DNA from: Hyphomicrobiales bacterium
GTDB taxonomy: Bacteria; Pseudomonadota; Alphaproteobacteria; Rhizobiales; Rhizobiaceae
Length of the DNA stretch: 64,000 nucleotides
Direction: 5' to 3'
Assembly (NCBI GenBank): GCA_900466575.1
Contig: UBMP01000016.1
Location: forward strand, 62,001 to 126,000
The notes under the pieces were generated by a model. It did no database searches, had not been told where the DNA came from, and saw only the letters and a list, made by a program, of their open reading frames with translations. Positions 18,645 through 48,508 of this stretch are shown piece after piece (position 1 is the first letter of the stretch; each line of letters opens with the position of its first letter). The position numbers and the translations under genes were made by a program.

Positions 18645-18717
18645 GCGGCCGGCGGTTTTTACTCTCACACTTGTAAATAGTTTCCGCAAGACGGAAATAC
18701 AAAAGGGAGGAAATACT
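18645..18717 (+). promoter_or_regulatory. Cassette leader A: GC box, ACTTGTAAATA, hairpin, strong RBS
   Basis: The leader has, in order, GCGGCCGGCGG (18645-18655), then after 16 bp ACTTGTAAATA, then a small hairpin TTTCCG/CGGAAA, then GGGAGG as ribosome-binding site. It is almost identical over about 75 bp to the leader at 19570-19645. The TAAATA may be the -10, with the GC box replacing the -35 region or binding a regulator. Confidence 0.55.
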
Positions 18718-19344
18718 ATGCATTTTGGAAACTGGCATATACGCGACATGCTTGGACATTCATACAGGGCTTCATCCTTGTTTTTGCAGGCAAAGGATTC
18801 AGACGAGGTTCTTAAAATAATTGGCAGAATCGCAAAAATTCTTTCAGAATCTGAATTTCAGCTTTTGAACGAAGAAGACGAAAATCTGTACAACTATTAT
18901 TTTTCTAGTAAAAATAATAGCCGCCTTAAGCCGAAAGACTTCCTCGCTCTTGAGGAGATAATTAAGTCCAGACTTCCGAAAGAAGAAAAGTCGTCTAAAC
19001 TCGACGACGCTTTCGATGAAGTACTTTCAACGCTTGCTCCAGCGCCGAAGTCTGACGAAGTCATGGTTGCAGTACCGAGTGCGACGCTCGGACTGCCAGT
19101 CCATGAGCCGACCGTCTTCGACCGCAACGAGATACGCAAGCTTATAGAAAAAGCTGGCGAACGCGCTGTCCTTGGCGGAAACAACTCACCGACAGACAGA
19201 CAAATGGACTTTCTTGCGGACCTGGTCACCAAGGCCCGCGACGAGGAATATCTGTCGACGCTCGAGTGGCCGAAGTATGAACTGACGCGCTCGGAATGCT
19301 CGAAATGGATTGACACGTATCTCGGAAAACGGAGGTCGGCATGA
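18718..19344 (+). CDS. Phage protein of unknown function with DUF3072-like C-terminus
   Basis: A 208-residue protein. The first half is AT-rich and Lys/Glu/Asn-rich, unlike neighbours, suggesting separate origin. The last 50 residues (SPTDRQMDFLADLVTKARDE, then LTRSECSKWIDTYLGK) follow the T-x-x-Q-x-x-x-L ... S-x-x-I-D-x-L pattern often found at the ends of phage DNA-binding proteins and in DUF3072. It is the first gene of cassette A, followed by a 4-bp overlap. Confidence 0.65.
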   Translation: MHFGNWHIRDMLGHSYRASSLFLQAKDSDEVLKIIGRIAKILSESEFQLLNEEDENLYNYYFSSKNNSRLKPKDFLALEEIIKSRLPKEEKSSKLDDAFDEVLSTLAPAPKSDEVMVAVPSATLGLPVHEPTVFDRNEIRKLIEKAGERAVLGGNNSPTDRQMDFLADLVTKARDEEYLSTLEWPKYELTRSECSKWIDTYLGKRRSA

Positions 19345-19547
19345 GAGACCTTTTCGCCGACTACCTAGCACTCCGTCGTCAGGATCTGCGTGAGGAAATG
19401 CTCAAGCCCGTCGTCGACTTCCGATCGGTAACGGATATCCGTGAGGAAATCGCCATGCTGGTCAGCGGAGCAATGGATCCGCGAGAGCGGTGGGTCATGG
19501 ATGGGATCGCGGAAGCGATTTTCGGATTGGACAACGGGGCGGCCTAG
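19341..19547 (+). CDS. Small phage protein, second gene of cassette A
   Basis: A 68-residue helical acidic protein starting MRDLFADYLALRRQDLREEM. The ATGA overlap with the preceding gene and a terminator beginning within its last codons define the end of the cassette. No family was recognised. Confidence 0.6.
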   Translation: MRDLFADYLALRRQDLREEMLKPVVDFRSVTDIREEIAMLVSGAMDPRERWVMDGIAEAIFGLDNGAA

Positions 19548-19559
19548 AGCCGCCCTTTT
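19537..19559 (+). terminator. Terminator of cassette A
   Basis: GGGCGGC (19537-19543) and GCCGCCC (19549-19555) form a perfect 7-bp stem with a 5-base loop, followed by TTTTCTTTT. The same stem recurs at 19924-19942. Confidence 0.85.
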
Positions 19560-19569
19560 CTTTTATAAT

Positions 19570-19645
19570 ACTTGTCGCCGGCGATTTTTACTCACATACT
19601 TGTAAATAGTTTCCGAAAGACGGAAATAAAAAGGGAGGAAATACA
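19570..19645 (+). promoter_or_regulatory. Cassette leader B, near-copy of leader A
   Basis: CGCCGGCGA box, 16 bp to ACTTGTAAATA, hairpin TTTCCG/CGGAAA, then GGGAGG seven bases before ATG. It differs from leader A at only a few positions. A duplicated leader driving an unrelated gene points to cassette-wise acquisition or a shared regulator. Confidence 0.55.
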
Positions 19646-19894
19646 ATGTTTAGACCAGGAACAGAATTCATTTATACCCTTCTGTATATACAGAAGGGTT
19701 TTCGGAATGCCGAAGTTGCAGTTGACGAAAAACTGCTCTTCGCTGTCGAGCGTTTTGCGGAAGACTTTTCCGACATATTCGACGAAGAGCTCTTTAAGAA
19801 ATACTTCCCAAACAAAGCTCAAGAGGAAAATAAATTTACACTAGAGCAGTTCGAGGAGTTTAAAGAGGAAGTCAAACGTCGCATGGAGGAGTAA
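19646..19894 (+). CDS. Small charged phage protein of cassette B
   Basis: An 82-residue protein, AT-rich, starting MFRPGTEFIYTLLYIQKGFR. The acidic helical C-terminus (FTLEQFEEFKEEVKRRMEE) could form a coiled coil. It lies between cassette leader B and its own terminator, so it is a stand-alone unit. Function unknown. Confidence 0.6.
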   Translation: MFRPGTEFIYTLLYIQKGFRNAEVAVDEKLLFAVERFAEDFSDIFDEELFKKYFPNKAQEENKFTLEQFEEFKEEVKRRMEE

Positions 19895-19923
19895 TAAATA
19901 TAGTTCGGATTTCGGATATAACA

Positions 19924-19946
19924 GGGCGGCTCCAGGCCGCCCTTTT
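19924..19946 (+). terminator. Terminator of cassette B
   Basis: GGGCGGC/GCCGCCC 7-bp stem (19924-19930, 19936-19942) with loop TCCAG, then TTTTCTTTT. The arms are identical to the cassette A terminator. Confidence 0.85.
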
Positions 19947-19999
19947 CTTTTGTCCGTTTCCGCCGACGGTACGAAGATCGTGGTCAAGGAGATGAGACC

Positions 20000-20899
20000 A
20001 TGAAGCACTACGACCGTTATTTTAGCGCCGACGAGATTTTTGCATTGCGCGAGCTTGCCCGCGAATTTGACCTGGACGGACCGCAGCGCCCTGAAGCGCA
20101 GGCCCTCTTTGTATGGTCACTGGGTCGAACCTTCTTGAAGCTCTGGAAGTCGCTCGACGTCGCTGCGGGAGGCCTTTGCGACAGCTACACAGATCGCGAT
20201 GGACGCATGCACCAGGTAGACGGTACGGTGTGGAAATCCCGCACTGGATCGGTCTATGTCGGCGAGAGGCTGAAATGGGAGCGTCGCGTCAGAGCGTGGT
20301 ATGCGGACTACTATCAGGAGGCTCGACATGTCGTAGATTGGCTGCATACGTCATTCCAAGACCGCGCTGACTGGCTTACACGCGTCGACGAACACGGTAG
20401 GCCGAAGAAGCTTATGAAGTGCGGCAGCCTAGATAGATTGCTGCATGAAGCCGACAAGGCCATGGCCCGCGCTCACTCTCTCGTGCCGAACTCTGAACGT
20501 GCTCGCGAGGAGGTTGTTGGCACTTACGAGGGGTACGAAGTCGTCCTTCTCCAGTCACCTGAAGCGCTTGACGTAGAAGGCAGGCGCATGGGTCACTGTA
20601 TAGGCCACGGATCGTACGACCAGCGTTTATCTGACCCTGGCTTGAAGTATGCGTCGATACGGAAGAACGGCGTTCCTGTGGCTACTGTCGAAGCTGTGCA
20701 GCACACCGATGGCCACTGGTATATCAGACAAGCATATGGCCCGCGCAATCGTCACGTGGATGCCGAGGTCATGGACTTTATGGTACGACACCTGCACCTG
20801 CGCACGTATGCCGAATTCAGGGCTGTCGAGCGCGCCGTCCGTATCGCAGACCAAGAACGCCGAGACGAAGAGCAAGGAATTCGTCCATTTCGGCTTTGA
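20000..20899 (+). CDS. PcfJ-like protein, paralogue 1
   Basis: A 299-residue protein. The hallmark is MGHCIGHGSYDQRL around His199-Cys200. After it come KYASIRKNGVPVATVEA and a segment with QAYGPRNRHVD, the pattern of PcfJ-like domains found in mobile elements. The stretch VVDWL...GRPKKLMK...SLD...EADKAMA (residues 111-156) and the HCIG core match the leftward protein at 44115-44960. The ATG follows AAGGAGATGAGACC. PcfJ function is unknown; it was first named on an Enterococcus conjugative plasmid. Confidence 0.65.
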   Translation: MKHYDRYFSADEIFALRELAREFDLDGPQRPEAQALFVWSLGRTFLKLWKSLDVAAGGLCDSYTDRDGRMHQVDGTVWKSRTGSVYVGERLKWERRVRAWYADYYQEARHVVDWLHTSFQDRADWLTRVDEHGRPKKLMKCGSLDRLLHEADKAMARAHSLVPNSERAREEVVGTYEGYEVVLLQSPEALDVEGRRMGHCIGHGSYDQRLSDPGLKYASIRKNGVPVATVEAVQHTDGHWYIRQAYGPRNRHVDAEVMDFMVRHLHLRTYAEFRAVERAVRIADQERRDEEQGIRPFRL

Positions 20900-20904
20900 G
20901 AAAT

Positions 20905-20914
20905 CCGCCGGCGG
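20905..20914 (+). promoter_or_regulatory. CCGCCGGCGG palindrome before a small gene
   Basis: A perfect 10-bp palindrome 32 bp upstream of the ATG at 20946, followed by a strong AGGAGG. The gap between the two genes is only 46 bp, so the box lies within the leader of the downstream gene. Confidence 0.4.
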
Positions 20915-20945
20915 ATGCATGCTTATGTAACAGGAGGATATAAGC

Positions 20946-21182
20946 ATGGGTACTATACTTGATCAGATCACATATATGGCGCTGGCCGATTTTATCGAGA
21001 GCGAGGTTCTCGACTCTGAAGACCGCGCTATCGCTATGCAGGAGATGCTCCGACTTGAGGTTAGGCATTTAGGTCTTGCCGATGAAGTCCGTCGGCATCG
21101 TCGGCTGATGCAGGAGATCGCTTTGAACAACGCGGATGCCGACATGTCACCTACCGCTCCAACATGGCTTCGGTATGCCTGA
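20946..21182 (+). CDS. Small helical phage protein
   Basis: A 78-residue protein starting MGTILDQITYMALADFIESEV. It is rich in charged helices (RLEVRHLGLADEVRRHRRLMQE). A strong AGGAGGATATAAGC precedes the ATG. It is the last gene before the RNA region. No family was recognised. Confidence 0.65.
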   Translation: MGTILDQITYMALADFIESEVLDSEDRAIAMQEMLRLEVRHLGLADEVRRHRRLMQEIALNNADADMSPTAPTWLRYA

Positions 21183-21187
21183 AATAT

Positions 21188-21216
21188 TTTCCGCCGGCTA
21201 TTGTGGCCGGCGGAAA
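21188..21216 (+). promoter_or_regulatory. 11-bp perfect hairpin built on the GCCGGC box
   Basis: TTTCCGCCGGC (21188-21198) pairs perfectly with GCCGGCGGAAA (21206-21216) around loop TATTGTG. Seventeen bases of it (GGCTATTGTGGCCGGCG) recur exactly at 40446-40462. There is no T-run on the plus strand, so an RNA element or operator pair is more likely than a terminator. Confidence 0.55.
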
Positions 21217-21237
21217 CATAGATCATCGTAAGTATAC

Positions 21238-21310
21238 CAGCAGTTTTCGTCCTTTCTTTACTGCTGAAATTTACGCCGTGACTTTCGGGTTGAAGTCACG
21301 GCGTTTTCTT
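21238..21310 (+). ncRNA. Candidate phage small RNA 1
   Basis: A 7-bp hairpin CAGCAGT/ACTGCTG (21238-21244, 21260-21266), then AAATTTACG, then a perfect 11-bp terminator stem CGCCGTGACTT/AAGTCACGGCG (21274-21303) and TTTTCTTTT. There is no reading frame and no clear promoter of its own. The same order of elements recurs in the next RNA, so the pair looks like a tandem duplication. Confidence 0.5.
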
Positions 21311-21323
21311 TTGCATATAGGGG

Positions 21324-21353: not shown

Positions 21354-21358
21354 GATCT

Positions 21359-21434: not shown

Positions 21435-21435
21435 C

Positions 21436-21713
21436 AATTATACTTGACGAATGCGGATTTGTACTTCATCGTCAATATCATCCGCCATCGAGGCGGGCAT
21501 GGACGATGAACGTCAACAAAATTTTAGGCTGGGGACCCTGACGGTCTCCGGCCTTATGCGGTTGATTGGCCACCGCATTCTGTCCGTCGATTAGAAATTT
21601 TCAAACTCAACTCAACATCAGCACCCCACCACGCTAACTGCCCTGCGCGTTGAATCTTGCAGATGCATAAAGCCCAATGTTCTCAACCATTTTCACGCTT
21701 GGAGGAGAACGGA
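21436..21713 (+). other. Non-coding region before terminase, candidate cos
   Basis: No gene was found. It contains inverted repeats ATGCGGT/ACCGCAT (21556-21578) and CCGCC/GGCGG (21482-21496), plus an imperfect dyad near 21532. In phages with GpA-type terminases the cos site lies just upstream of the small-subunit gene, so this is the natural place to look for it. The final bases GCGTTGAATCTTGCAG resemble repeats at 26695 and 31095. Confidence 0.35.
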
Positions 21714-22337
21714 ATGGCACGTAATCCGACGACGACGAGGGTGCTGAAACGGACTGAAATTGAGAACGGAACATCAGCACCCCCTGCTGAACAATCAGCA
21801 CCCGCGTTGACGAAACGGGAAGAAGCCAAGCAGCGCCACGTCTCACTGAAGCAAGCGGCAACCCTAATTGGTCGCGACCGCAACACGCTCATGAAATACC
21901 TGGATGACGGAATGCCATTTGTTGAAAAGGCGGACAGGGATCGCGGTGCTTCATGGATTCTTGATCTCGCCGACGTTGTCCGTTGGCTCGAGAAGCGTGC
22001 GGCCGAGAACGCCAGCGAAAAGGTTGGGAGCAAAGAGGGCCAGATCACTGAAGACGAAGCGAAGAGACGCCGTGCTGTCGCACAAGCCTTTACGGCAGAG
22101 CTTGAGTACGCTGAAACAGCTCGCATCGTCGCCCGCATCAATGACATGCTCGATCTCGTTAAGCGAGATTACTCTGAGGTCAGTCAGAGGCTCAAGGGTG
22201 TCCCCGATGCGATTGCGTCAAAGGTCGATGCAAAGGTATCTGAGCGTGTCCGTGCAACTGCGACTGAGCTAATCGGAAATACCCTAAAGGGTCTGTCTGC
22301 GGTCAAGGACATCGAGCGCATCGCATCCGGGACGTGA
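21714..22337 (+). CDS. Terminase small subunit (DNA-binding)
   Basis: A 207-residue packaging protein. Its N-terminal region (RHVSLKQAATLIGRDRNTLMKYL, then WILDLADVVRWLEKR) is a winged helix like lambda Nu1/DUF1441-type small subunits. The C-terminal half is a coiled coil (RRRAVAQAFTAELEYAET). The ATG at 21714 follows GGAGGAGAACGGA and is preferred to the start at 21657. It overlaps the large-subunit start region. Confidence 0.8.
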   Translation: MARNPTTTRVLKRTEIENGTSAPPAEQSAPALTKREEAKQRHVSLKQAATLIGRDRNTLMKYLDDGMPFVEKADRDRGASWILDLADVVRWLEKRAAENASEKVGSKEGQITEDEAKRRRAVAQAFTAELEYAETARIVARINDMLDLVKRDYSEVSQRLKGVPDAIASKVDAKVSERVRATATELIGNTLKGLSAVKDIERIASGT

Positions 22338-22339: not shown

Positions 22340-24556
22340 ATGAACGCGGTTGATATGACATTCTCGGAGGCAAGAGCATACTTTGAAGGCCATACTTTCG
22401 AAGAAGGTTTGGACGAGTTTGCGCGCAAGCTGCACGAGTACAGATCGGAATATCTGGAGTGGCCGACACTCCAGGGTCCAATCGCTTGGATTTACGACAA
22501 CATCGAAATCCCCGCGACAGAGTCGACACGTGCCGGGAACATGAGGTTGACCGTCTACCAGCGCCTCATGGCTGAGTGTGCGGTTGACCCTGACGTGACA
22601 CAGGTCACTGTCCTGAAGGGCGTTCAGATCGGCTATTCGAAGGCTCTGAAAGCCATCTACGCCTATGTCGTCGCGTACATGCAGAAGAACGTGGCGGTCG
22701 CCTTTCCGACAAAAGAAGATGTTGCTCGATTCTGGAAGGACGAAATCGTCGACATGTACTCAACGGTCGATGCGTTCAAGAAAATCGTCCGAGATATTGA
22801 GCGTGGTCAGGCTCAGGACACACTGCGAGAGCAGCGCTTTTCGACTGGAGTTAAGACCTACTTCCGTGGGGCGTTTAACGAGGACGATCTTCAGGGTTTC
22901 ACATCATGGCTGATGATGGCCGACGAAGTCGACCGCAGCGGCTGGCTACCAAAGAAGGGTAGCCAAGGCGATAAACTCAAGCAGTTTCGAAACCGTGGGA
23001 CGAACTTTCGCGACTCGAAGCTCTTCGTCGGGTCTACACCTGGTCTTCGACACATGTCTCTCGTCTGGAAGGAATGGCAAACATCGGACAAGCGCAGGCT
23101 TAAAGTCACCTGTCCTCACTGTGGTCATCGCCAGGAACTCAAGTGGACGACTGGAGACGAGGATTACGGGTTTCGTTGGGATCTCGACGAGCAGACTGGA
23201 CGCGTCGAGGTAGCATACTATCGATGTGCAGGTCCGAAGCACTGTCGCATCGACGAAGACATCAAGGACGACATGATCGATGCTGGTGTCTATGAAGCGA
23301 CCGAAATAGCAGCCGTACCAGGTAATGTAGGTATCCACGCTCCATCATGGCTATCACCTGCTCCGAAGGCATCGTGGAAGAACCTTGCTCAAGAATGGCT
23401 GAACGCTCAGGACGATCCTGAACTCCTGAAGGAATTCTACAACTTTAAGATGGCGGAGCCGTGGGATGAGTTCATATCCCAATCGATCGGAGAAGCTGGG
23501 GTCGCCGTACATCGACGTCCATATCCTGCAGAAGTCCCAGATGACGTTGTCGTCCTGACATGCGGCGGTGATGACCAAACCAACAAAGAAGGGACAACGC
23601 TCGAGAAGCTAGCTTCTCGAGAAATTTCAGTTGTTGGATGGACTAGAAGAAGAAAGCCACGTCTGATCGGTCACTGGGTCATCCCTGGTGAAGTCGGAGA
23701 TCCAGACGCCGATGCGGCATATACGTTCTTCCTTAAACGACCATACCGAAAGCGCGACGGGACTGAAATGCATATCATGGCAACGGCAATGGATATGGGT
23801 GGTCACCATCCCGACGAGACACGTATCTTTGCGGCGTCTTTCCCGTCCGCCATGAACGTATTTGCAATCCGTGGCTCAAACCAATCGGAAGGCAGTAGAC
23901 TACCGAGCATATGGCCGAATGGAAGCACAACGAAAGTCAAGCGTGGTCGCAAGATGAAGTCGTATACCGTAGATTCACAGCAAGCACGTGATAAAATTGC
24001 GGAGTTGCTTCTCGGGTCGGCTGACGATGCCCCGATGTTTCCTGACGCGATGCCAGACGAGTATTTTACGAAGCTTCTCTGTGAACAGAGAACCCTGAAA
24101 CCGAACGGAGGTTATCACTGGCATCCGAAAAAAGGAGGGCGACCTGAAGAGGAATGGATGTGCCTTGCATATGCATATGTGGCTCTTGAGGGACTTCGCT
24201 ACGAAAGACCAAAGTGGCGTAACTTGAATCTTGCAGCGACTGCCGCCGGAATACCCGACATCATGTTCGACCCAGAGACTGGGGAGATAGGATACACGGG
24301 GCCAGACCTTTCTATTCCCGCACTCCAATACTCTGTCGATGGACTGATACCGGACTTGGTCAAGGACCACTCTGAAGTCAAGCGGAGTACACTTGTTGAG
24401 CAACGGAAGGCAGTAATCGGAAAGACCAAGGATCCAGTAGTGAAACCAGAAACACCTTCAGTTCCAGACTTGACGAGCCAACCCGCTCAGAAGAGGAGCA
24501 GAAAGTCAGGATGGTCTAGCGGAGGTTCGAGGCCTGGACGAGTTGGGAGATGGTAA
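22340..24556 (+). CDS. Terminase large subunit, lambda GpA type
   Basis: A 738-residue packaging ATPase-nuclease. The N-terminal ATPase has an adenine/Walker-A-like segment around VTVLKGVQIGYSK (about residue 92) and Walker B MMADEVDRS (about 195). A zinc ribbon follows (CPHCGH at about 260, YRCAGPKHC at about 295). The C-terminal nuclease begins near VLTCGGDDQTN. The protein ends in a basic tail. The ATG at 22340 is preferred over a GTG at 22334 that overlaps the previous stop. GpA-type enzymes usually cut at cos. Confidence 0.92.
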   Translation: MNAVDMTFSEARAYFEGHTFEEGLDEFARKLHEYRSEYLEWPTLQGPIAWIYDNIEIPATESTRAGNMRLTVYQRLMAECAVDPDVTQVTVLKGVQIGYSKALKAIYAYVVAYMQKNVAVAFPTKEDVARFWKDEIVDMYSTVDAFKKIVRDIERGQAQDTLREQRFSTGVKTYFRGAFNEDDLQGFTSWLMMADEVDRSGWLPKKGSQGDKLKQFRNRGTNFRDSKLFVGSTPGLRHMSLVWKEWQTSDKRRLKVTCPHCGHRQELKWTTGDEDYGFRWDLDEQTGRVEVAYYRCAGPKHCRIDEDIKDDMIDAGVYEATEIAAVPGNVGIHAPSWLSPAPKASWKNLAQEWLNAQDDPELLKEFYNFKMAEPWDEFISQSIGEAGVAVHRRPYPAEVPDDVVVLTCGGDDQTNKEGTTLEKLASREISVVGWTRRRKPRLIGHWVIPGEVGDPDADAAYTFFLKRPYRKRDGTEMHIMATAMDMGGHHPDETRIFAASFPSAMNVFAIRGSNQSEGSRLPSIWPNGSTTKVKRGRKMKSYTVDSQQARDKIAELLLGSADDAPMFPDAMPDEYFTKLLCEQRTLKPNGGYHWHPKKGGRPEEEWMCLAYAYVALEGLRYERPKWRNLNLAATAAGIPDIMFDPETGEIGYTGPDLSIPALQYSVDGLIPDLVKDHSEVKRSTLVEQRKAVIGKTKDPVVKPETPSVPDLTSQPAQKRSRKSGWSSGGSRPGRVGRW

Positions 24557-26686: not shown

Positions 26687-26709
26687 CGTGACTAGCGTCG
26701 AATCTTGCA

Positions 26710-27825
26710 GTGGACTTCTTCATCGTCGGCTCAAATGACGAATTTGAGTTTTCGAACGCGATGACGAAACGGACTGCACGCACTGTTGAAATGAGCCGCC
26801 GGGCTATGTCTGGCGCTCCGTCGACCGTGAACGCGGATACCCGTAGTTTCGATATTGTCATCACCACAGAGGCCCCAGTCCGCACATGTATCCCTGATCC
26901 GTACTCGGATGGATACATCGACGTTGACGAGGTTCTCCTCGCTGATGGTCTCGACTACTCGCGCACACCTCGCATGCCGTTGATCGATAATCATGACACG
27001 TTCGGCGGTGTGAAATCAGTCCTCGGTCGTGTCGACAACGTGCGATCTGAGAACAAGGAAATTGTAGGAACTGCCGTCCTGACGAGCCAGTCCGCGCCGC
27101 TGCTGCAAGACATCGCCGACGGTTTTTTTGGACAAGTCTCTGCCGGCTACGTCGTCAACGAGTACAAAATCGAAACCCGTGACGGAAACGTCCCGCTCGC
27201 TCTGGCGACATCCTGGACGCTGCACGAAGCTAGCCTTGTGCCTATCGGCGCTGATCCGAATGCGTCCGTCCGCTCCTCGAAGAAAACTTTCCCCGCGCCG
27301 ACCGTGCGCGGCCTAACCAACATGAAAGGTAAAACTATGGATCTCGAAGCACTGCTTTCCGCTGCTGAGGAAGCCCTGGATGCACTCGACGGCGCTCCCG
27401 AAGACGGCGCAACTGACGACACCGTCGCTCGCGCCGCACGTCTCCGCAAACTGCGCGCTGACATGCTCGCCGAGGAAGACCCGAATGCCAAGCCGAACGA
27501 AGACCCCGGCATGCGCGCAGAAGGCGATCCCACGGATGGAACGCTGACGCCGGCTGAGGACAAGGAAAACGCGGACCTCGAGACTGCCGCCCGCGCCTTT
27601 GGACTGAGCAAGTTCGTCGCAGACCTTCGCGCCCTGAAGGCAAAGCCTGCTGCAATTCGATCTGCGCTCGTCGCCGAAAGGATCAAGCTGGGCGCATCGG
27701 CGTCGGCGTCTGGATCGCGGTCGGCTCTTGAGGTTCGCAAGCCAAGCACCTCTTCGACGATATCGAACGCCGAACGCGCTCGTCGCTCGTACGAGAAACT
27801 CAACAACGCTCACAAGGCGAAATAA
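26710..27825 (+). CDS. Prohead serine protease fused to scaffold-like domain
   Basis: A 371-residue protein. Residues 35-200 have the HK97-type prohead protease fold, with catalytic His95 (PLIDNHDTFGG) and Ser144 (FFGQVSAGY). The C-terminal 170 residues are acidic, Ala-rich and helical, as in scaffold or delta domains cleaved during capsid maturation. The start is uncertain: GTG at 26710 or ATG at 26761 (MTKRTARTVEMSRR); neither has a good ribosome-binding site. It processes the capsid made by the genes downstream. Confidence 0.8.
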   Translation: MDFFIVGSNDEFEFSNAMTKRTARTVEMSRRAMSGAPSTVNADTRSFDIVITTEAPVRTCIPDPYSDGYIDVDEVLLADGLDYSRTPRMPLIDNHDTFGGVKSVLGRVDNVRSENKEIVGTAVLTSQSAPLLQDIADGFFGQVSAGYVVNEYKIETRDGNVPLALATSWTLHEASLVPIGADPNASVRSSKKTFPAPTVRGLTNMKGKTMDLEALLSAAEEALDALDGAPEDGATDDTVARAARLRKLRADMLAEEDPNAKPNEDPGMRAEGDPTDGTLTPAEDKENADLETAARAFGLSKFVADLRALKAKPAAIRSALVAERIKLGASASASGSRSALEVRKPSTSSTISNAERARRSYEKLNNAHKAK

Positions 27826-30799: not shown

Positions 30800-31159
30800 A
30801 TGCCAGCCAACCCTTTTCTCGCCATCGCCCGAATGCAAATGAAGGTCTTCCGAGACACCAGATCGGAAAACCGCTGGTTTCGTTTCGATGGCCCTGTCGA
30901 CGGCGACGTCGTCGACCTGATGTTTGATGAATCATACGCCGAGACTGACACGACGGGTATCGCGGTCGAAGCTCCGATGCCGACTGCATGGATCCTACAG
31001 TCGACGGTTTTGGCTCTCGCACCAGGACGCGCAGGGTCACCAGACATCTATGTCAACAACGACGATCAATTCGTCGTAAATGGTGTCCGCTATAGCGTCG
31101 AATCTTGCAGTCCAGACGGGTATGGCTTGATCGAAGTAAAGCTTATCAGGAAGCGCTGA
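30800..31159 (+). CDS. Head-tail joining protein
   Basis: A 119-residue protein between capsid and tail terminator genes, the slot of FII- or ATP-binding-sugar-like head completion proteins. The C-terminal strands (PDIYVNNDDQFVVNGVRYSV, YGLIEVKLIRK) follow the common pattern of a small barrel. A 19-bp sequence near its end is repeated at 26693. The assignment is by order. Confidence 0.55.
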   Translation: MPANPFLAIARMQMKVFRDTRSENRWFRFDGPVDGDVVDLMFDESYAETDTTGIAVEAPMPTAWILQSTVLALAPGRAGSPDIYVNNDDQFVVNGVRYSVESCSPDGYGLIEVKLIRKR

Positions 31160-38250: not shown

Positions 38251-38317
38251 GTGACCTCGTTTCTTGCACCGCATTCGGATTCGATGAGACATCGACATTC
38301 GAGAATGCTGACGAACT

Positions 38318-38581: not shown

Positions 38582-38612
38582 CGCAAGTCATTGATTTCTC
38601 TTGTTTCTCATT

Positions 38613-38622
38613 CCGCCGGCGG
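38613..38622 (+). promoter_or_regulatory. CCGCCGGCGG palindrome before the HTH-phosphoesterase gene
   Basis: A perfect palindrome 42 bp upstream of the ATG at 38664, in an 82-bp gap. It is followed by GGCATGG as in the inverted form of the 14861 element, and then AAGGAAGG. Confidence 0.4.
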
Positions 38623-38663
38623 GCATGGTTGCGTTATTGGCTCGCTAAAAAGGAAGGAAACCG

Positions 38664-40319
38664 ATGCGAGGCACCAGAAAACAGATCAACGAGCGTGTAA
38701 ATGCCGTAATCAAGCAGTCGCTCACGAAAGAAACTTTTGCCACTATTGCCGAGGCTCTTGGTATATCACTCAAACAAGCACGATCAGCACGTGAAAAAGC
38801 CATCGAAATCCTGAGGCAGGAACAGTCTTCACAACCTACTGCTCCAGAACCTGAAAAATCAGAGAAACCCAAACCAATCCGCATCTCGAAAATCGACGAA
38901 ATCGTCGTCGACATCAAGCCCGACAAAGTCCATCGCTACATCCTGACGGCCGCACAGGATGACACTCCAGTACACAAAGATTTCTGGAATAACCTGGCTG
39001 CTTTCGCGGTCTATAAGTCAGCCGAGGTCGTCGTTGCCGGATACACGTACCAAAAAGGTCTCTTCGAGGATCACGCCGTGGCAACCGCGGCATACGCCAG
39101 CGAGATTCGTGACCACATCGTCTACGACCGCGTGCGCTTTGGATCGGATCTCCTATTCGTCTCTGACGCCAATATCTTGCCGACGGCCGCGAACCCCCTT
39201 CAGGGCTGGCAGACGACGAACAGTGGTCAGCACGTCGTCGTACCGCATGCGCGTATTGCACTTGAGAGTATCCCGCGCATGCAAGGCCAGCCGCCGCGCT
39301 ACGCGATATCGACAGGCTGCTGCACTGTCCCGTCATATGCTCCAAGAGCCGCAGGAAGGAAGGCCATCTTCCATCACACATATGGCGCTCTGCTCGTCGA
39401 AATCGATATCGATGGAGAGGTCTTCTTTCACCAGATCGTCGGAGACGACGATGGAAGCTTTCAAGTCCTAGATGAAGTTGTGTCAGGAGGAAAGATTTTC
39501 ACCGAGCAGCGCGTCGCGGCGATAACCTGGGGTGACATACACCACGACCAGCTTGACCAGGCTCAAGGTATGGCAGCCTGGGGATATGACCGAAAGACTA
39601 GGTCTTTTGTAGATGTCGACAATTTACTCGACAGGCTGCGCCCGCACTACTCGATACTCGAGGATACGCTTGATTTCCGTTGGCGCAACCACCACAACAT
39701 TCAAGACCCGATCTCCATGGCAAAGATGGCCGCTCGCGGGACAGTCTGCGTCGAGCAAGAAGTCACGGAAGCCGTGCGTTTTGCAAACGGCCTACTACGT
39801 GACTGGTGCCAGACAGTCGTAATCGAAAGCAACCATGACAGTGCTATCGCAAAGTGGCTTCGCGGAGACGAAGGTCGGTACGATCCAGAAAATGCATACC
39901 TATGGCATCGGTTAAATGCAGACTGGCATGATGCTGTTCGGATGATGCTCGATGACTTCAACATCACATACCATGCGTTCCGTTCGTGTGGTCTATCAGA
40001 AGATGTTTTCTTCGTTCCAGCCGGCGGATCGTTGGTCGTTCAGGATGTCGAGCATGGTCTGCATGGAGACATCGGTGTCAATGGCGCGCGCGGGACGCCC
40101 ACGCAGTTCCGACGCTTCGGACGTAAGGTCACCAGCGGACATACTCACAGTCCCAGGATCCAAGACGGATCCTATGTCGCTGGCGTCTCCGCTAAACTTG
40201 ACCAGGGATACAATGTCGGACCGACGACATGGGCGCATGCGCACGTCGTTCTGTACCCGAACGGGAAACGCGGGATGATTTCGATGTCGGCAGATGGACG
40301 ATACGAAGCACGAAATTGA
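38664..40319 (+). CDS. HTH-metallophosphoesterase fusion, T5 A1-like
   Basis: A 551-residue protein. Residues 22-52 (KETFATIAEALGISLKQARS) form a helix-turn-helix. The C-terminal calcineurin-like site has Asp291-x-His293 (WGDIHHDQLD), Asn390-His391 (ESNHDS), His467-Gly-Asp (GLHGDIG) and His493-x-His495 (SGHTHSP). Length and motif order recall proteins annotated as phage T5 A1 (second-step DNA transfer and host DNA breakdown); that link is from memory and untested. It stands alone between box and terminator, downstream of tail genes. Confidence 0.75.
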   Translation: MRGTRKQINERVNAVIKQSLTKETFATIAEALGISLKQARSAREKAIEILRQEQSSQPTAPEPEKSEKPKPIRISKIDEIVVDIKPDKVHRYILTAAQDDTPVHKDFWNNLAAFAVYKSAEVVVAGYTYQKGLFEDHAVATAAYASEIRDHIVYDRVRFGSDLLFVSDANILPTAANPLQGWQTTNSGQHVVVPHARIALESIPRMQGQPPRYAISTGCCTVPSYAPRAAGRKAIFHHTYGALLVEIDIDGEVFFHQIVGDDDGSFQVLDEVVSGGKIFTEQRVAAITWGDIHHDQLDQAQGMAAWGYDRKTRSFVDVDNLLDRLRPHYSILEDTLDFRWRNHHNIQDPISMAKMAARGTVCVEQEVTEAVRFANGLLRDWCQTVVIESNHDSAIAKWLRGDEGRYDPENAYLWHRLNADWHDAVRMMLDDFNITYHAFRSCGLSEDVFFVPAGGSLVVQDVEHGLHGDIGVNGARGTPTQFRRFGRKVTSGHTHSPRIQDGSYVAGVSAKLDQGYNVGPTTWAHAHVVLYPNGKRGMISMSADGRYEARN

Positions 40320-40440: not shown

Positions 40441-40445
40441 CTGTC

Positions 40446-40520
40446 GGCTATTGTGGCCGGCGAAAATCGGAGACACACTTGTAAATACGAGGTCACATAA
40501 ACCCCCTCGCAAGGAAGGAA
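40446..40520 (+). promoter_or_regulatory. Leader with GCCGGC box and ACTTGTAAATA
   Basis: GGCTATTGTGGCCGGCG (identical to 21196-21212) is followed after 14 bp by ACACTTGTAAATA and then AAGGAAGG before the ATG. The box-to-TAAATA distance of 19 bp equals that of cassette leader B, supporting a common promoter architecture. Confidence 0.5.
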
Positions 40521-40526
40521 ATGATC

Positions 40527-41231: not shown

Positions 41232-41254
41232 GTTCCCCGCGGGGAACTTTTTTA
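41232..41254. terminator. Terminator before the endolysin
   Basis: GTTCCCCGCGGGGAAC is a 16-bp perfect palindrome (41232-41247) followed by TTTTTTT. A partial extra copy of the left arm (AGTTCCCCGT) lies just before it. Confidence 0.8.
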
Positions 41255-41967: not shown

Positions 41968-42240
41968 ATGGGTCTCTACCGTCCGAAATCCTCGAATCCG
42001 TATGTCCCAGACTCGTTGAAGACGATGAAAGAACAGATCTCCGAGGCCATCGCCGCAGAGATCGAGGCCACCGGGGTCAAGTCGCCAGACGTCGCGAAGC
42101 GTGTCCCATCCTGCCGAGCATCCAATTTTACCGATTTCAAGGACGGCTTCGGCGACCGTTACGGCATGGCTAGGCTGATCAAAGTCGCCGAAGCCCTCGG
42201 TCTGCGTGTCGAACTCCATATCAAAGGGAGGACGGCATGA
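41968..42240 (+). CDS. Small XRE-like protein in the lysis cluster
   Basis: A 90-residue protein following the endolysin directly. Residues 20-80 (ISEAIAAEIEATGVKSPDVA, then MARLIKVAEALGLRVELHIK) have an XRE-like helix-turn-helix layout like small phage regulators. It overlaps the holin gene by 4 bp. It could regulate lysis or be a divergent antitoxin. Confidence 0.55.
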   Translation: MGLYRPKSSNPYVPDSLKTMKEQISEAIAAEIEATGVKSPDVAKRVPSCRASNFTDFKDGFGDRYGMARLIKVAEALGLRVELHIKGRTA

Positions 42241-43223: not shown

Positions 43224-43384
43224 AGACGTCAACCATAGCTGGCAACGACCGAAAAGGAACTCATCAAGACGTTTGGCGTGAATACATCTCGTGCGTCAAC
43301 CGCGGCATCGATCAGGCGAAATCGTTTCATATCGGCGATTGGGAACCGATTGGCTCAAGCCGTTCCGCGATCTTCAAACGGTAG
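43220..43384 (+). CDS. Possible small protein after the spanin pair
   Basis: A 54-residue frame (MKTSTIAGNDRKGTHQDVW onward) with ATGA overlap to the Rz1-like stop and ending TAG. Its last 58 bp overlap the 3' end of the convergent regulator gene. Start coupling supports translation; there is no recognisable domain. Confidence 0.45.
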   Translation: MKTSTIAGNDRKGTHQDVWREYISCVNRGIDQAKSFHIGDWEPIGSSRSAIFKR

Positions 43385-44118
43385 TTACTCTCAAGGTTCA
43401 CCCACATCACCGGATCAGTGTCCAAAACACGGCCGAATTGGATCGCAGTTTCCTCAGTGAGGGGAGCTTTACCTGAAATTATCTCGCTGATGAATTTCGC
43501 CGACCGACCGCAACGTGTCGCGAAATCCTGTTTGTTCAGGTCCCGCGAATCCAGAAAATCCTCCAGAACTTCACCTGGAGAGACTATGTAATCGGTTCCT
43601 ATGTGTGCAACGCTCATGGGTGGTAGTCCCCTATATAAACAATCTCGACCGATGTAACTAGGTCGATCCCGCGCTAGGCTCTGGATGGCGAGCGCCTCAC
43701 GCTGCATGACTGTTGTCACCATTTTACGGGTCAAAGGCAGGTCGCCGACGATGCCGACTAGACGGACGTGATAGATATCAGTCCCCGAGACGCCAGCCAG
43801 GAATTCCCGTGACACGAAACCGTCGTCGATCGCCGAAATCCAGTGCTCGCGCAGCCATGCCTGTTCGTCCGACATCGTGCTGAGATCTGGCTCCGAGGCC
43901 TGAACGACGAGGTCGACGGTAGCTATGCTCGGCGTCCTGTGACCAGTTTTGTCGGGATGCATGAGATATTGGCGCACGGTCTGCTCGGTACGGCCGATGG
44001 CGTCTGCGATTTCAGCAGCGAGACGTCCGCCCGGGAAAGTATCGCGGGCGACTTCGAAGGCAGCGGTGAAAGCGTGCCAGGCGGCAATTTTTGTCGAGTA
44101 GGGTATAGGTAGGGTCAT
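43327..44118 (-). CDS. Double-HTH regulator with HigA-like C-terminus
   Basis: A 263-residue protein. An N-terminal HTH is around residues 30-55 (GGRLAAEIADAIGRTEQTVR). The last 95 residues (SPGEVLEDFLDSRDLNKQDF, SAKFISEIISGKAPLTEETA, then LDTDPVMWVNLESNY) match the HigA/VapI XRE antitoxin family. No HigB-like toxin is adjacent. It is coupled (4-bp overlap) to the PcfJ-like gene upstream. It could be the lysogeny repressor or an antitoxin-derived regulator. Confidence 0.7.
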   Translation of the reverse strand: MTLPIPYSTKIAAWHAFTAAFEVARDTFPGGRLAAEIADAIGRTEQTVRQYLMHPDKTGHRTPSIATVDLVVQASEPDLSTMSDEQAWLREHWISAIDDGFVSREFLAGVSGTDIYHVRLVGIVGDLPLTRKMVTTVMQREALAIQSLARDRPSYIGRDCLYRGLPPMSVAHIGTDYIVSPGEVLEDFLDSRDLNKQDFATRCGRSAKFISEIISGKAPLTEETAIQFGRVLDTDPVMWVNLESNYRLKIAERLEPIGSQSPI

Positions 44119-44960
44119 TGTGCATTCACATCCGTTTGCGCGCCTGGTGCGTGTAAAAATCTTATTCCTGATGCGTGTAAAAATAGTACTCCAATTTTTT
44201 CAAGAAAATGACAAAGAACCAGAAGATATTTTTCGTCAGGCCTTCTATTCTGCTTTCCTTGAATCTGGGAAATTGTTTCAATGCTTCCTAGAGACCTATT
44301 TAGATATGCCTCAATCGTCACATGCGGCTTTCCGAAGCGGTCCCGCAGCGAGTGGTAGGCATACTTATCCGTCAGTTTCACGCGGTCGTCATAAGCACCC
44401 TGTCCGATGCAGTGCTGCATCTGGGCGCTTTCCCTGTCCAGTGCCGCTGGGGTCAGCATGCGGACGACGTAGTAGCCATCCTCGAGTCGATCGACGACCT
44501 CCTCGTCTTCGGTCGACATCGGGACGGACATAGCTTTCTGGTACTCACGCTCGGCAGCAAGACGCATAGCTTTGTCGGCCTCGGCTACGATCTGGTCCAA
44601 CGATGAGAACTTCATCAGCTTCTTAGGACGACCTTGGTCATCGACGTTCTTCAGCCATGGTTCGTTGTTTCTGATGGCCGCTCGCAGCCAGTCAACAACA
44701 TGCCAAAAATCACGCGAACCAAAGCCCTGATATGACAGAAAATCCTTGGCTGCGATTAGGTCAGTCTTCTTTTTCCGACTAGAAAGTATATTTCGAACGA
44801 CGCGCATAATGCTGCAATCAATAAAATTGCGAAGATTACCATTTAAGTCTTTCTCTTCGTAAAATATGTAGCCATCAAAGTAATCCATAACTGATTTAAT
44901 TTTATTGACTATGTAATCTTCGGCATTGCATCCGATATTTTCGTCAATTAAATACGTCAT
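44115..44960 (-). CDS. PcfJ-like protein, paralogue 2
   Basis: A 281-residue protein. The core MQHCIGQGAYDDRV (His183-Cys184), KYAYHSLRDRFGKPHVTIEA and QGKQNRRPDEK match the PcfJ-like pattern and the paralogue at 20000-20899. The preceding DWL...VDDQGRPKKLMKFSSLD...EADKAM segment (residues 90-132) also matches. The first 75 residues are AT-rich and unrelated to paralogue 1, so this is a mosaic. A leader with ACTTGTAAATAACCGCCGATGG lies upstream. Confidence 0.65.
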   Translation of the reverse strand: MTYLIDENIGCNAEDYIVNKIKSVMDYFDGYIFYEEKDLNGNLRNFIDCSIMRVVRNILSSRKKKTDLIAAKDFLSYQGFGSRDFWHVVDWLRAAIRNNEPWLKNVDDQGRPKKLMKFSSLDQIVAEADKAMRLAAEREYQKAMSVPMSTEDEEVVDRLEDGYYVVRMLTPAALDRESAQMQHCIGQGAYDDRVKLTDKYAYHSLRDRFGKPHVTIEAYLNRSLGSIETISQIQGKQNRRPDEKYLLVLCHFLEKIGVLFLHASGIRFLHAPGAQTDVNAQ

Positions 44961-44999
44961 GTTAGAAAGCCTCCATTTTTTTATTATTTTATAGTCACC

Positions 45000-45026
45000 C
45001 CATCGGCGGTTATTTACAAGTCATAA
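45000..45026 (-). promoter_or_regulatory. Leader element of PcfJ-like paralogue 2
   Basis: On the minus strand ACTTGTAAATA is followed directly by ACCGCCGATGGGG, the same two motifs as the cassette leaders but with the GC box downstream instead of upstream. The ATG is 40 bp further, after ATGGAGG. Confidence 0.4.
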
Positions 45027-46312: not shown

Positions 46313-46543
46313 ATGCAGTGGATTGTGAAGGCGGCAGACTGGTGGCGGAGACGTGTGCATCCGAGTACGGCAGACCGCGATGCGGATCGACTTGGACTTC
46401 ATGAGGACGGTCGGAAACGGCTGCACGAAAACTACGAAGCCAGCCTGCCGAGCATTCGGTCGGCGATCGTCGAGGTGGTATTGGCAGCAGTCTTCGTATT
46501 GGGCGTGATAGGACTCGGCATCGGCGCATGGCTATCGCGGTAG
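46313..46543 (+). CDS. Small C-tail membrane protein
   Basis: A 76-residue protein. A basic, polar N-terminal 48 residues (WWRRRVHPSTADRDADRLGL) are followed by a single hydrophobic helix (IVEVVLAAVFVLGVIGLGIG) at the C-terminus. The ribosome-binding site is weak. Function unknown. Confidence 0.5.
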   Translation: MQWIVKAADWWRRRVHPSTADRDADRLGLHEDGRKRLHENYEASLPSIRSAIVEVVLAAVFVLGVIGLGIGAWLSR

Positions 46544-46579
46544 CTTGAGCTTGATACAGTCTACCGCGAACAATTATTG

Positions 46580-47113: not shown

Positions 47114-47436
47114 TCCCCCGCTTGCTTCAGCCAGTCATTGATGACGAGCTTTAAATCATCATAACACGCATCCTGGGGGTATCCAGCAGCCTGACACTGG
47201 TAGACATACGACTGCAAAAATCCAGAGCACTGGACGGCCAGCATGCTCTGAACATTGAGGCCCATTTTTATTGCCCCGTGCAGGCCACTGCCAGCCATTA
47301 TCACGTTTGCTCTGACGCAGTTTGAGAAGCCCGTCATGCTGTTTAGCATGAGATCAGTCGGCTGTGCTGACGCGCAGACTGATGGGGACAAGGCCGCGAT
47401 TACAGCCGCCATAATCGCCAGTCTTTTCATATCCAC
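47110..47436 (-). CDS. Secreted Cys-rich protein
   Basis: A 108-residue protein with a signal peptide (MDMKRLAIMAAVIAALSPSV, cleavage after ASA). The mature part has four Cys (SNC, VQC, YQC, DAC), likely two disulfides, in helical segments. It resembles Rap1a/Tai-type periplasmic immunity proteins only in general layout. It is coupled by 4 bp to the secreted beta-sandwich protein, suggesting a working pair. Confidence 0.6.
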   Translation of the reverse strand: MDMKRLAIMAAVIAALSPSVCASAQPTDLMLNSMTGFSNCVRANVIMAGSGLHGAIKMGLNVQSMLAVQCSGFLQSYVYQCQAAGYPQDACYDDLKLVINDWLKQAGE

Positions 47437-47504
47437 AGATACCCTCCGACAATGCTCGCAAAAATTGATCTCTACTTCATATCGTAAACTGCGAGTGTCT
47501 CAAA

Positions 47505-47577
47505 CGGAAGTTTGCGCGTTGCGCGCCGGCGGACGATCATAGCTCCAGACGTCTCATTTCGGCGTTGGGAGGAAACC
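47505..47577 (+). promoter_or_regulatory. Cassette leader C (GC box, repeated)
   Basis: GTTTGCGCGTTGCGCGCCGG continuing into CGGA, then CAGACGTC and GGGAGGAAACC before the ATG. The leader is repeated almost base for base at 47918-47988, although the genes behind differ. Confidence 0.5.
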
Positions 47578-47901
47578 ATGAGTAAGGGACTGACTGTAAC
47601 TATAAATAGTGCTGGCGCGATAACGATTCGAATATCAGCCGCTGATCTAAAGAGAGCGGCGCAGAGAAGTCCGGGATTGCTTGAAACTTTCGATGGTGAA
47701 ACGGGGGATTTTTTACTTCCGAAAATCGACGCAAAGGTATTCGCCAAGGAAGTCTGGCGTGAACTTATCCGAGAAGATGAAGATGGCTCTACGCCAGTGA
47801 CTGATCTTTTTGATAAATGCTTCAATGAAGCGTGTGAGCGTGGTGCAGATGGAATTCGAATGCCGACAGACCATGATTACGGACGGAAGCTACGGGCCTA
47901 A
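47578..47901 (+). CDS. Small phage protein of unknown function
   Basis: A 107-residue protein starting MSKGLTVTINSAGAITIRIS after GGGAGGAAACC; a start at 47512 would lie inside the leader repeat. It has an N-terminal strand pair, a helix with KVFAKEVWRELIREDED and a Cys-containing C-terminal helix. No family was recognised. Confidence 0.6.
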   Translation: MSKGLTVTINSAGAITIRISAADLKRAAQRSPGLLETFDGETGDFLLPKIDAKVFAKEVWRELIREDEDGSTPVTDLFDKCFNEACERGADGIRMPTDHDYGRKLRA

Positions 47902-47909
47902 TTCAGAAG

Positions 47910-47988
47910 TCCGCCGGCGTTTGCGCGTTGCGCGCCGGCGGACAACCATACTCCTCAGACGTCATCATTCCGACGTTTGGAGGAAACC
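47910..47988 (+). promoter_or_regulatory. Cassette leader D (GC-box hairpin, copy of leader C)
   Basis: TCCGCCGGCG (47910-47919) and CGCCGGCGGA (47933-47942) form a perfect 10-bp hairpin; the right arm and the 50 bp after it repeat leader C. GGAGGAAACC precedes the ATG. Confidence 0.5.
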
Positions 47989-48144
47989 ATGGACATTCTT
48001 TTTGCTGGCCTAACGATCCTATTCGTCGGCCTGAAACTTACCGACAAAATCAAGTGGTCCTGGTGGGCCGTCACTGCTCCGATCTGGGGACCGCTGGCAG
48101 CGCTTTTCGTCGTCGGTTTTCTCATCGGTTTTGCGGGAGCTTGA
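47989..48144 (+). CDS. Small two-helix membrane protein, Fragile-X-F-like
   Basis: A 51-residue protein (MDILFAGLTILFVGLKLTDK, then IKWSWWAVTAPIWGPLAALF). The L-x-F-x-x-LKL ... I-x-WSWWxVxxPxWxP pattern matches small phage proteins annotated as transmembrane Fragile-X-F protein, a name without known function. Two membrane helices flank a Trp-rich turn. It was too short for routine frame calling but has a strong ribosome-binding site. Confidence 0.75.
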   Translation: MDILFAGLTILFVGLKLTDKIKWSWWAVTAPIWGPLAALFVVGFLIGFAGA

Positions 48145-48147
48145 GCG

Positions 48148-48471
48148 ATGGACAGCGATATCGAAAGGATCACGAAGAAACTGCAGGCGTGTGAAAATCA
48201 GATCGTCAATGACGTCGCAGACCGTATCTTGGCTATGATCGCGTCGTCAGGAGAAGGATTCGAGACCACGTTGATCGCATTGCCAGGGATGCTGAAGAGT
48301 GCTGTCGTCATGCATGTGCATCCAGATGTCTTCGATGCGGTGCGGGAGAAGACAAATGCGTATGAGAAGCCGACGAAGCGGACGGCTCAGGACTTCTACG
48401 ACGCAGAAATCGACGAGAACTTTTATATCACGTTCCGTCCTATGGCGGATATTGGGATACATAAATGGTAA
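48148..48471 (+). CDS. Small phage protein of unknown function
   Basis: A 107-residue protein 3 bp after the membrane protein. It has a helical N-terminus (IERITKKLQACENQIVNDVA) and an ending YITFRPMADIGIHKW. A terminator follows immediately. No family was recognised. Confidence 0.6.
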   Translation: MDSDIERITKKLQACENQIVNDVADRILAMIASSGEGFETTLIALPGMLKSAVVMHVHPDVFDAVREKTNAYEKPTKRTAQDFYDAEIDENFYITFRPMADIGIHKW

Positions 48472-48492
48472 GGGGCCAGTCGGCCCCTTTAT
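48470..48492 (+). terminator. Terminator AAGGGGCC/GGCCCCTT, copy 1
   Basis: A perfect 8-bp stem (48470-48477, 48482-48489) with loop AGTC, then TTATC. The exact reverse complement of the core occurs at 49084-49103. Confidence 0.7.
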
Positions 48493-48498
48493 CATTTC

Positions 48499-48508
48499 CG
48501 CCGGCGGT
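48499..48508 (+). promoter_or_regulatory. CCGCCGGCGG palindrome before the glutaredoxin-like gene
   Basis: A perfect palindrome 57 bp upstream of the ATG at 48565; GAGGAGG follows as ribosome-binding site. AATAAT at 48532-48537 could be a -10. Confidence 0.4.

Follow-up and report, generated by a model that had tools for sequence, protein, structure and literature searches.

The window analyzed here, a stretch of 64,000 nucleotides from a Hyphomicrobiales bacterium (contig UBMP01000016.1, positions 62,001 to 126,000), contains a prophage that is apparently bounded by an integrase gene (6864-8027) and a tRNA-Pro gene (49161-49237) and that lies within contig C38 of the 5.1-Mb genome. This prophage encodes a lambda-type large terminase (TerL), a portal protein, a major head protein and a DNA transfer protein resembling T5 A1, a label taken from the record annotations of the matches. 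AbiEii-like, PcfJ-like and Rep3_N-like genes are also present; of their Pfam matches, that to Rep3_N and one of the two to PcfJ fall below the cut-off. A previous sequence-only reading of this DNA had proposed that a recurrent palindrome containing GCCGGC, located in the leaders of many phage genes, marks either a phage-wide regulon with its own operator or a nonstandard promoter in which the GC-rich box replaces the -35 element.

A megablast search of 24 kilobases (kb) of the prophage against named phages gave no matches, and every match of the TerL and A1 proteins in the phage collection was below 60% identity. Relatives were drawn from viral contigs and from genomes; identity of the A1 protein was 54-71% in the viral contigs and the best three genomes and 30-39% in five further genomes, and TerL identity was 37-74% across the near set of relatives. 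The major head protein, used as a query against the viral contigs, found nothing.

All 14 leader boxes of the sequence-only reading were present, each within 5 bases of where it had been placed, with noncoding GCCGGC at 8939, 14202, 14867, 18648, 19577, 20907, 21193, 21206, 38615, 40456, 47525, 47913, 47934 and 48500. In the prophage (8600-49160), 14 of the 28 copies of GCCGGC lie outside the gene set, whereas noncoding DNA makes up only 12.1% or 10.5% of the sequence, depending on which of two hand-made gene sets is used; the motif is, therefore, not equally frequent in coding DNA. The binomial p value was 1.2e-7 with the 10.5% set, which contained three wrong frames. Among palindromic 6-mers, GCCGGC has the most noncoding copies in the prophage. 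No noncoding excess was found in 240 kb of host DNA, where 18 of 442 copies were noncoding (p 0.997). While GCCGGC recurs in leaders as had been described, the full palindrome CCGCCGGCGG is found only three times in the window (20905, 38613 and 48498), and with 85 sites genome-wide compared to 55 for a reversed-word control, this 10-mer is itself not phage-specific.

In relatives, GCCGGC is found between the preceding stop and the start of the A1-type gene in five of seven cases (the window, L018, L019, L021 and L028, but not L020 and L029), and G198 provides a sixth case. GCCGGC is completely absent from 16-22 kb each of L020 and L026 (one contig), L027, L029, L054, L057, L060, L061 and L064, which have a G+C content of 48-56%; this absence could perhaps represent restriction-site avoidance.

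Side-by-side reading of the leaders, with identical leaders counted once here and in the pattern, spacing-scan and box-place tests, yielded a promoter pattern, [ACT]TTG[ACT]-N19-[CAG]AnnnT (i.e., TTGnnn-N17-[CAG]AnnnT), which was then frozen. On the sense strand, this pattern holds 12 of the 14 noncoding boxes of the window, spread over ten promoters and including that of the minus-strand gene starting at 14165, compared to 0 of 14 on the antisense strand, 0 of 14 among the coding boxes and a mean of 0.19 (maximum of 3) in 2000 shuffles. Box offsets relative to the pattern were -8/-7, +6 and +14/15 only. These analyses took 47988-48194 as a gene; the true gene is 47989-48144. Among the one-sided leader boxes of relatives, which omit boxes flanked on both sides by gene starts and those lacking one within 30-110 base pairs (bp), 9 of 25 were in the pattern on the sense strand and 0 on the antisense strand (0.16 in shuffles); none of 4 leader boxes in host DNA matched.

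As the pattern had been picked after looking at the leaders, the spacing was also allowed to float. A free scan for TTG-Nk-[CAG]AnnnT found k=20, which corresponds to a 17-bp spacer, in 13 of 26 leaders of the window, compared to 0-5 at the other 23 spacings and 4 on the antisense strand, and in 75 of 427 leaders of relatives, compared to 27-56 at other spacings and 39 on the antisense strand. Host DNA showed no such peak (9 of 143 leaders, like other spacings). The TTG at -35 with a 17-bp spacer, as expected for a sigma70-type promoter, is thus sharply marked in the window and its relatives, while the T at -12 is not; TA...T gave no k=20 peak in relatives (4 of 427 sense versus 7 antisense) or in the window (1 of 26 versus 0). 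A second peak in relatives, at k=13 (56 leaders), fits the sister promoters described below. For the class of promoters defined by k=20, hereafter class II, the layout is TTG at -35, a 17-bp spacer and a -10 element of the form [C/A/G]A(Y)NNT, with a weak base preference at the expected start, as in the sister class; A at -11 and T at -7 are built into the class II pattern and are not independent there.

In the window, 12 of 13 k=20 sites before genes carry a box, the remaining one, at 41254, having the geometry without it. The element takes one of three places, namely immediately before the -35, immediately behind it, or in the second half of the spacer. Across the window and relatives, 56 of 80 k=20 sites carry GCCG or CGGC at such a place, compared to 44 of 308 at 13 other spacings, a contrast that is weakened by the three places having been defined on the k=20 set itself. 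At the two spacer places, GCCG is followed by GC in 16, by AC in 10 and by AT in 5 of 43 cases; the GCCGGC palindrome is therefore the commonest spelling of a GCCGRC/GCCGAT element, and three promoters of the window (16994, 19949 and 45019, the latter on the minus strand) carry this element as GCCGAC or GCCGAT, without GCCGGC. The palindrome is thus one spelling of the element and not its essence. The proposal that the GC box replaces the -35 did not hold, because TTG stands at the normal -35 position, 17 bp before the -10, with the box just upstream of it or in the spacer. Similarly, a link between some boxes and TAAATA was borne out, in that ACTTGTAAATA is found at 18669, 19598 and 40477 (and once on the minus strand, at 45011-45021), but TAAATA starts 20 bp past the box, not 18-19 bp, and by the pattern, CACACT or CATACT just upstream is the -10, with TAAATA overlapping the expected start.

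The predicted class II sites of the prophage are given here by position. The minus-strand site at 14193-14222 precedes the Rep3_N-like gene (12552-14165) and comprises ATTGAT, GCCGGC in the spacer, a -10 of CATCAT and an expected start at 14186. On the plus strand, the site at 14846-14882, upstream of the gene at 14924, has ATCGGC, CTTGTG, GCCGGC at 14867 and a -10 of AATCCT. The site at 16987-17023 has GTCGGC, CTTGCT, GCCGAC and a -10 of AATTCT, with no GCCGGC, and would give the AbiEii-like nucleotidyltransferase gene (17053-17955) its own promoter. The sites at 18642-18671 (CTTGCG, GCCGGC at 18648, CACACT, expected start at 18678) and 19571-19600 (CTTGTC, GCCGGC at 19577, CATACT) precede the genes at 18718 and 19646, respectively, and the site at 19949-19978, with TTTGTC, CCGCCGACGG in the spacer and a -10 of GAAGAT, precedes the PcfJ-like gene at 20000. 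A possible plus-strand site, recognized by eye at 20896-20923 before the gene at 20946, has TTGAGA, GCCGGC at 20907 and CATGCT, with a spacer that is one base shorter. The plus-strand site at 21193-21229 has GCCGGC, ATTGTG, a second GCCGGC, a -10 of CATCGT and an expected start at 21236, and no gene of the hand-made set starts within 75 bp of it. Two hairpins, the second of which (21273-21312) is T-rich at its end, were seen by eye after this promoter, and 21236-21312 is a candidate small RNA of approximately 77 bases.

Further downstream on the plus strand, the site at 38600-38629 (CTTGTT, GCCGGC at 38615, CATGGT) precedes the T5 A1-like gene at 38664, and the site at 40443-40479 (GTCGGC, ATTGTG, GCCGGC at 40456, CACACT) precedes a gene start at 40521 or 40527. 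The operon at 43327-44960 has a minus-strand site at 44991-45020 with CTTGTA, CCGCCGATGG in the spacer and a -10 of GACTAT. The last three sites are on the plus strand, at 47511-47540 before the gene at 47578 (TTTGCG, GCCGGC at 47525, GATCAT), at 47913-47949 before 47989 (GCCGGC, TTTGCG, GCCGGC at 47934, AACCAT) and at 48500-48537 before 48565 (GCCGGC, TTTGCT, AATAAT). The box at 8939-8944, located on the minus strand in the leader of 8614-8895, is an exception for which no TTG/-10 pattern was found.

The sequence-only reading missed a sister class of promoters, hereafter class I, which is represented by TYGAATCTTGCA-N16-T before terS and head genes. TCTTGCA was among the enriched noncoding 7-mers of the relatives, in phages with and without GCCGGC alike, and in 53 of 57 noncoding sites (with 30-75 bases allowed and identical leaders counted once), CTTGCA lies 45-60 bases ahead of the start codon, usually as TYGAATCTTGCA. 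A base tally of sites located 44-62 bases before a start (n=46) showed T at -7 in 39 and A at -11 in 22, neither of which was required in the selection, and a purine at the expected start in 37. The register is that of class II, with a CTYGAA -35 followed by TCTTGCA, which occupies the first half of the spacer, and 36 of 45 class I sites contain GAATC. In the 5.1-Mb genome, TYGAATCTTGCA-N16-T is found at three places, all on the plus strand of the prophage (0 for the control), and in 199 genomes it is found at 29 places compared to 3 for the control, with clusters of 3, 4 and 6 in G135, G202 and G180. By eye, sigma54 was considered from the TTGCA and dropped, as the GG-GC spacing is wrong, and the RpoE1 motif of Sinorhizobium meliloti, given as GAAT-N18-GTCT in the available part of the source (PMC3616915), was rejected because the GTCT part is absent.

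All class I sites in the window are on the plus strand. The site at 21649-21678 precedes terS (start at 21714) and has TTGAATCTTGCA, with the core at 21655, a -10 of CCCAAT and an expected start at approximately 21685. A second site, at 26697-26726, has TCGAATCTTGCA, with the core at 26703 and a -10 of CATCGT, and precedes a gene at 26761 that, by its position, is a candidate for the head protease, whose place in lambda-type head modules it occupies. The core at 31097-31126, before 31163, also has TCGAATCTTGCA (core at 31103), with C at -7, and a weak core at 38256-38285, before 38318, has TCTTGCA without GAA and a -10 of TTCGAT.

One class I site (24223-24252) is located inside terL, in the codons for Leu-Asn-Leu-Ala, with T at -7. 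In all 25 relatives that share these residues, some of which are close to one another, the 12 bases are TTGAATCTTGCA, even though 288 codings exist. In the control, which used the 43 conserved four-residue windows of terL (29 relatives compared, windows common to at least 12), the next window overlaps the site (0.39), the best non-overlapping window reached 0.38 and the median was 0.15. Four relatives (L055, L046, L063 and L065) have other residues at this site, with other bases, and the distant outgroup L081 encodes Leu-Asn-Leu-Ala in other codons. In L063, the altered core AATGATGCA is found in both the terS leader and terL, a concerted change that is expected if one factor reads both sites. 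G107 represents a partial case, in which a leader has AATGTTGCA, terL has AATGTCGCA and a single normal core is located elsewhere. Concerted change was rejected as a general rule, since L065 has an altered terL sequence without a leader copy and L055 has a normal leader core with GTTGCA in terL. The identical terL codons together with the change in L063 constitute a rare type of evidence, available from sequence alone, for a promoter within a coding region that may be read by a trans-acting factor.

In class I leaders, a hairpin was also recognized by eye; its 5' arm overlaps both the -10 and the expected start, and its 3' arm extends to the ribosome site. For 45 of the 46 sites (one has no T before CTTGCA), the computed energy needed to open the start region averaged 12.3 kcal/mol in read-through RNA, 7.9 kcal/mol when the bases upstream of the expected start were shuffled and 5.3 kcal/mol in promoter-made RNA, with the read-through energy exceeding the shuffled mean in 42 of 45 leaders. 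Given this position of the 5' arm, poor translation is predicted for read-through RNA and good translation for promoter-made RNA. The effect is weaker in class II, where the respective values, with identical leaders counted once, were 8.9, 7.2 and 4.6 kcal/mol, and read-through exceeded shuffled in 41 of 56. According to the available part of PMC3014915, the leaders of T4 gene e, soc and I-TevI have a hairpin that masks the ribosome site in the longer RNA and whose 5' arm is overlapped by the late promoter. By computed folding, class I leaders resemble them, as the site would be masked in transcripts that read through from upstream and accessible in those started at the promoter. They differ in that the arrangement is found ahead of several virion genes in many phages and is known from computation only.

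Taken together, the GCCGGC boxes likely belong to a two-class sigma70-type phage promoter system, in which a trans-acting factor reads the spacer. The previous reading of the boxes as a phage-wide regulon or promoter set is right in kind and wrong in layout; 12 of the 14 noncoding boxes of the window fall into a sense-strand promoter pattern, which relatives share less completely. Host RNA polymerase with its main sigma factor would transcribe these promoters only, or best, with a trans-acting factor on the spacer element, and the GCCGRC and TCTTGCA promoters would represent two co-regulated gene sets. At class I promoters, the hairpin would keep translation of read-through RNA low, while promoter-made RNA would be translated efficiently, in the manner of T4 gene e. 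A family of rhizobial prophages without a close named relative in the phage collection would thereby gain a readable promoter code, from which gene sets may be predicted, and the factor that reads the spacer would become testable.

A number of observations weigh against this interpretation. The -35/-10 pattern was read by eye in leaders, including those of relatives, before it was tested, and it is missed by two boxes of the window (8939 and 20907), by 16 of the 25 one-sided leader boxes of relatives and by 15 of 18 boxes in GTDB stretches (3 of 18 are in the pattern), with some of the missed boxes, e.g., in L018 and L019, keeping the layout one base upstream of the allowed range. Leaders of relatives with GTCGGC matched in 1 of 20 cases (0.19 in shuffles) and those with GCCGAC in 3 of 17 on the sense strand and 1 on the antisense strand (0.15 in shuffles). 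The frozen pattern also matched 10 (plus strand) and 3 (minus strand) of 139 boxes of relatives that were called coding, perhaps because a crude gene caller covered some leaders. As a specific genome-wide probe, the class IIa pattern was rejected, since it matches 185 of 199 genomes, and the class I word, once its TY prefix is dropped, also matches a fourth genomic site that lies outside the prophage (C19). In addition, the absence of T at -12 says little in favor of an activator, since S. meliloti sigma70 promoters ordinarily have a -10 that is poorly conserved, as described in the available part of PMC3616915.

Candidates for the trans-acting factor are a phage GcrA-like protein (8614-8895), an HTH_37 protein (41968-42240) and host GcrA; the sequence-only reading had proposed the products of 8614-8895 and 43327-44118. 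The 93-residue product of 8614-8895 (minus strand) has a GcrA-like helix-turn-helix (HTH) and a Cys4 motif, and its structural model shows a trihelical N-terminus with a predicted local distance difference test score (pLDDT) of approximately 80, compared to 68 overall. Homologues (E < 0.001) were found in 6 of 27 records (G424, G436, G202, G180, G198 and G135), with the G135 homologue on a different contig from the G135 prophage pieces; that only 2 of 17 virus records, many of them fragments, carry one is a point against its role. Seven aligned sequences of this type, two of them as halves, have six invariant columns, including W12 and three of the four cysteines. A profile of 8614-8895 matched host GcrA N-termini over 46 columns (93% probability, E 2.8e-7 for one pair). 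Against PDB, GcrA chains were weak matches (E 0.055-0.065), and a "CAP repeat" entry and a CRISPR-repeat-binding protein scored better. As the test against Pfam failed, with no GcrA match up to E 10, the protein is called GcrA-like and not GcrA. The GcrA model found only the host gene in the genome of the window, and the G202 homologue scored 20.6 bits with a cut-off of 26.9. Foldseek with a low-confidence single-sequence model gave no matches at E 0.001 or better. The protein is thus a lead, a candidate reader of the boxes. The 90-residue HTH_37 protein, encoded on the plus strand after an endolysin-like gene and with homologues in several relatives, is an alternative candidate regulator, as is 43327-44118, which has an HTH of the HigA type.

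GcrA is described as a partner of sigma70 at promoters that carry GANTC sites, and in Brevundimonas, a prophage operon that includes a GpA terminase has been reported to be GcrA-dependent (PMC7987155, available part). It is conceivable, although doubtful, that a GcrA-like sigma70 cofactor of the phages themselves reads the spacer, with TCTTGCA beside a methylatable GAATC marking virion genes and GCCGRC marking the rest, so that late transcription would be tied to methylation of newly copied phage DNA and the virion-promoter hairpins would silence read-through. If such a protein were the factor, phage late transcription would be linked to the methylation-based cell-cycle control of the host. 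A survey of phage genomes weighs against this, since, in the part available, it reports no skewed distribution of predicted GcrA sites (PMC9437464).

Among alternatives to the two-class promoter system, the boxes may instead be operators of a prophage repressor, such as the HTH protein encoded by 43327-44118, with ordinary sigma70 promoters being silenced in the lysogen through the GCCGRC site. Sites overlapping the -35 and spacer are classic places for repressors. In addition, the operon of 43327-44118 has CCGCCGATGG in the spacer of its own promoter, and the HTH of this protein is of the HigA type. By contrast, the related loci searched, most of which are partial, yielded no homologue of 43327-44118 at E 1e-5, yet boxes are found there, and the weak -10 elements suggest a need for help and not for repression. 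Overall, this explanation seems somewhat unlikely.

Control by the host alone, with GcrA and CcrM methylation reading the GAATC class, housekeeping sigma70 reading the rest and no phage factor involved, would account for GAATC in 36 of 45 class I sites and is in line with the presence of a host GcrA gene and with the Brevundimonas prophage operon (PMC7987155, in the portion accessible). However, the class II pattern has no GANTC, the constraint in class I extends well past GANTC into TCTTGCA, and the altered core common to the terS leader and terL of L063 points to a factor that varies along with the phage; we regard this alternative as quite unlikely.

A role of the box in RNA, with two GCCGGC copies pairing into a leader hairpin that acts as an antiterminator, processing or stability element, is improbable even though perfect stems arise from the copies at 47913/47934 and 21193/21206 and, in several relatives, GCCGGC is paired with GTCGGC. 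All 12 pattern-matched boxes are upstream of the expected start, and hence outside the promoter-made RNA, and 8 of these 12 are the only exact GCCGGC of their promoter. At the gathering score, the Rfam matches in the window were four tRNAs and the host ar14 small RNA, and six relatives gave none; with relaxed settings, the prophage yielded the tRNA and two further matches below threshold. That the boxes represent chance, GC content, a repeat element or GC-rich terminator remnants between genes is hardly credible, since, even though the boxes at 48500 and 19577 directly follow a terminator-like hairpin of the previous gene, the box has fixed offsets to TTG and the -10 on the sense strand only, and host noncoding DNA, with its own terminators, has no excess (18 of 442).

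Compared to known systems, the two-class promoter system, with its sigma70 geometry and informative spacers, would belong to a known kind, phage-specific promoters, of which it appears to be a new variant. T4 middle promoters combine a MotA box with a sigma70 -10; they are similar in having a phage-specific element near -30 on a sigma70 -10 and in switching many genes together, whereas here a TTG -35 is also kept and the element is GCCGRC or TCTTGCA. Promoters activated by lambda CII have paired sites flanking the -35, approximately two helical turns apart, an arrangement that is also seen here with a different sequence. GcrA/CcrM promoters of Alphaproteobacteria share the use of a sigma70 cofactor and of a methylation site adjoining the promoter, represented here by GAATC in most class I sites and by the GcrA-like phage protein; the class II pattern, by contrast, has no GANTC, and the fixed elements are much longer (PMC7987155, available part). 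Phages of Alphaproteobacteria with CtrA boxes likewise have intergenic regulatory boxes, but use another motif and a host regulator (PMC9437464, available part). S. meliloti sigma70 promoters have the same conserved TTG and poorly conserved -10, and the accessible text of PMC3616915 does not mention a GCCGRC or TCTTGCA element. Among the matches listed in the open-access literature, a scope that excludes most subscription journals, none reports a GCCGGC/TCTTGCA promoter motif in a phage.

Several further observations concern individual genes. The T5 A1-like gene (38664-40319), which is found beside a lambda-type terminase, matched 1125 phage records by tblastn, all below 60% identity. Homologues of the AbiEii-like gene are present in several related phages, mostly adjoining a homologue of 16019, as in the window. 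The minus-strand gene at 12552-14165, whose match to the Rep3 initiator N-terminus is weak and below the cut-off, has homologues in L058, L060, L061 and L064. Finally, the host DNA of the window carries two tRNA-Glu(ttc) genes (52756-52830 and 53052-53126), which are approximately 300 bp apart and have equal scores.

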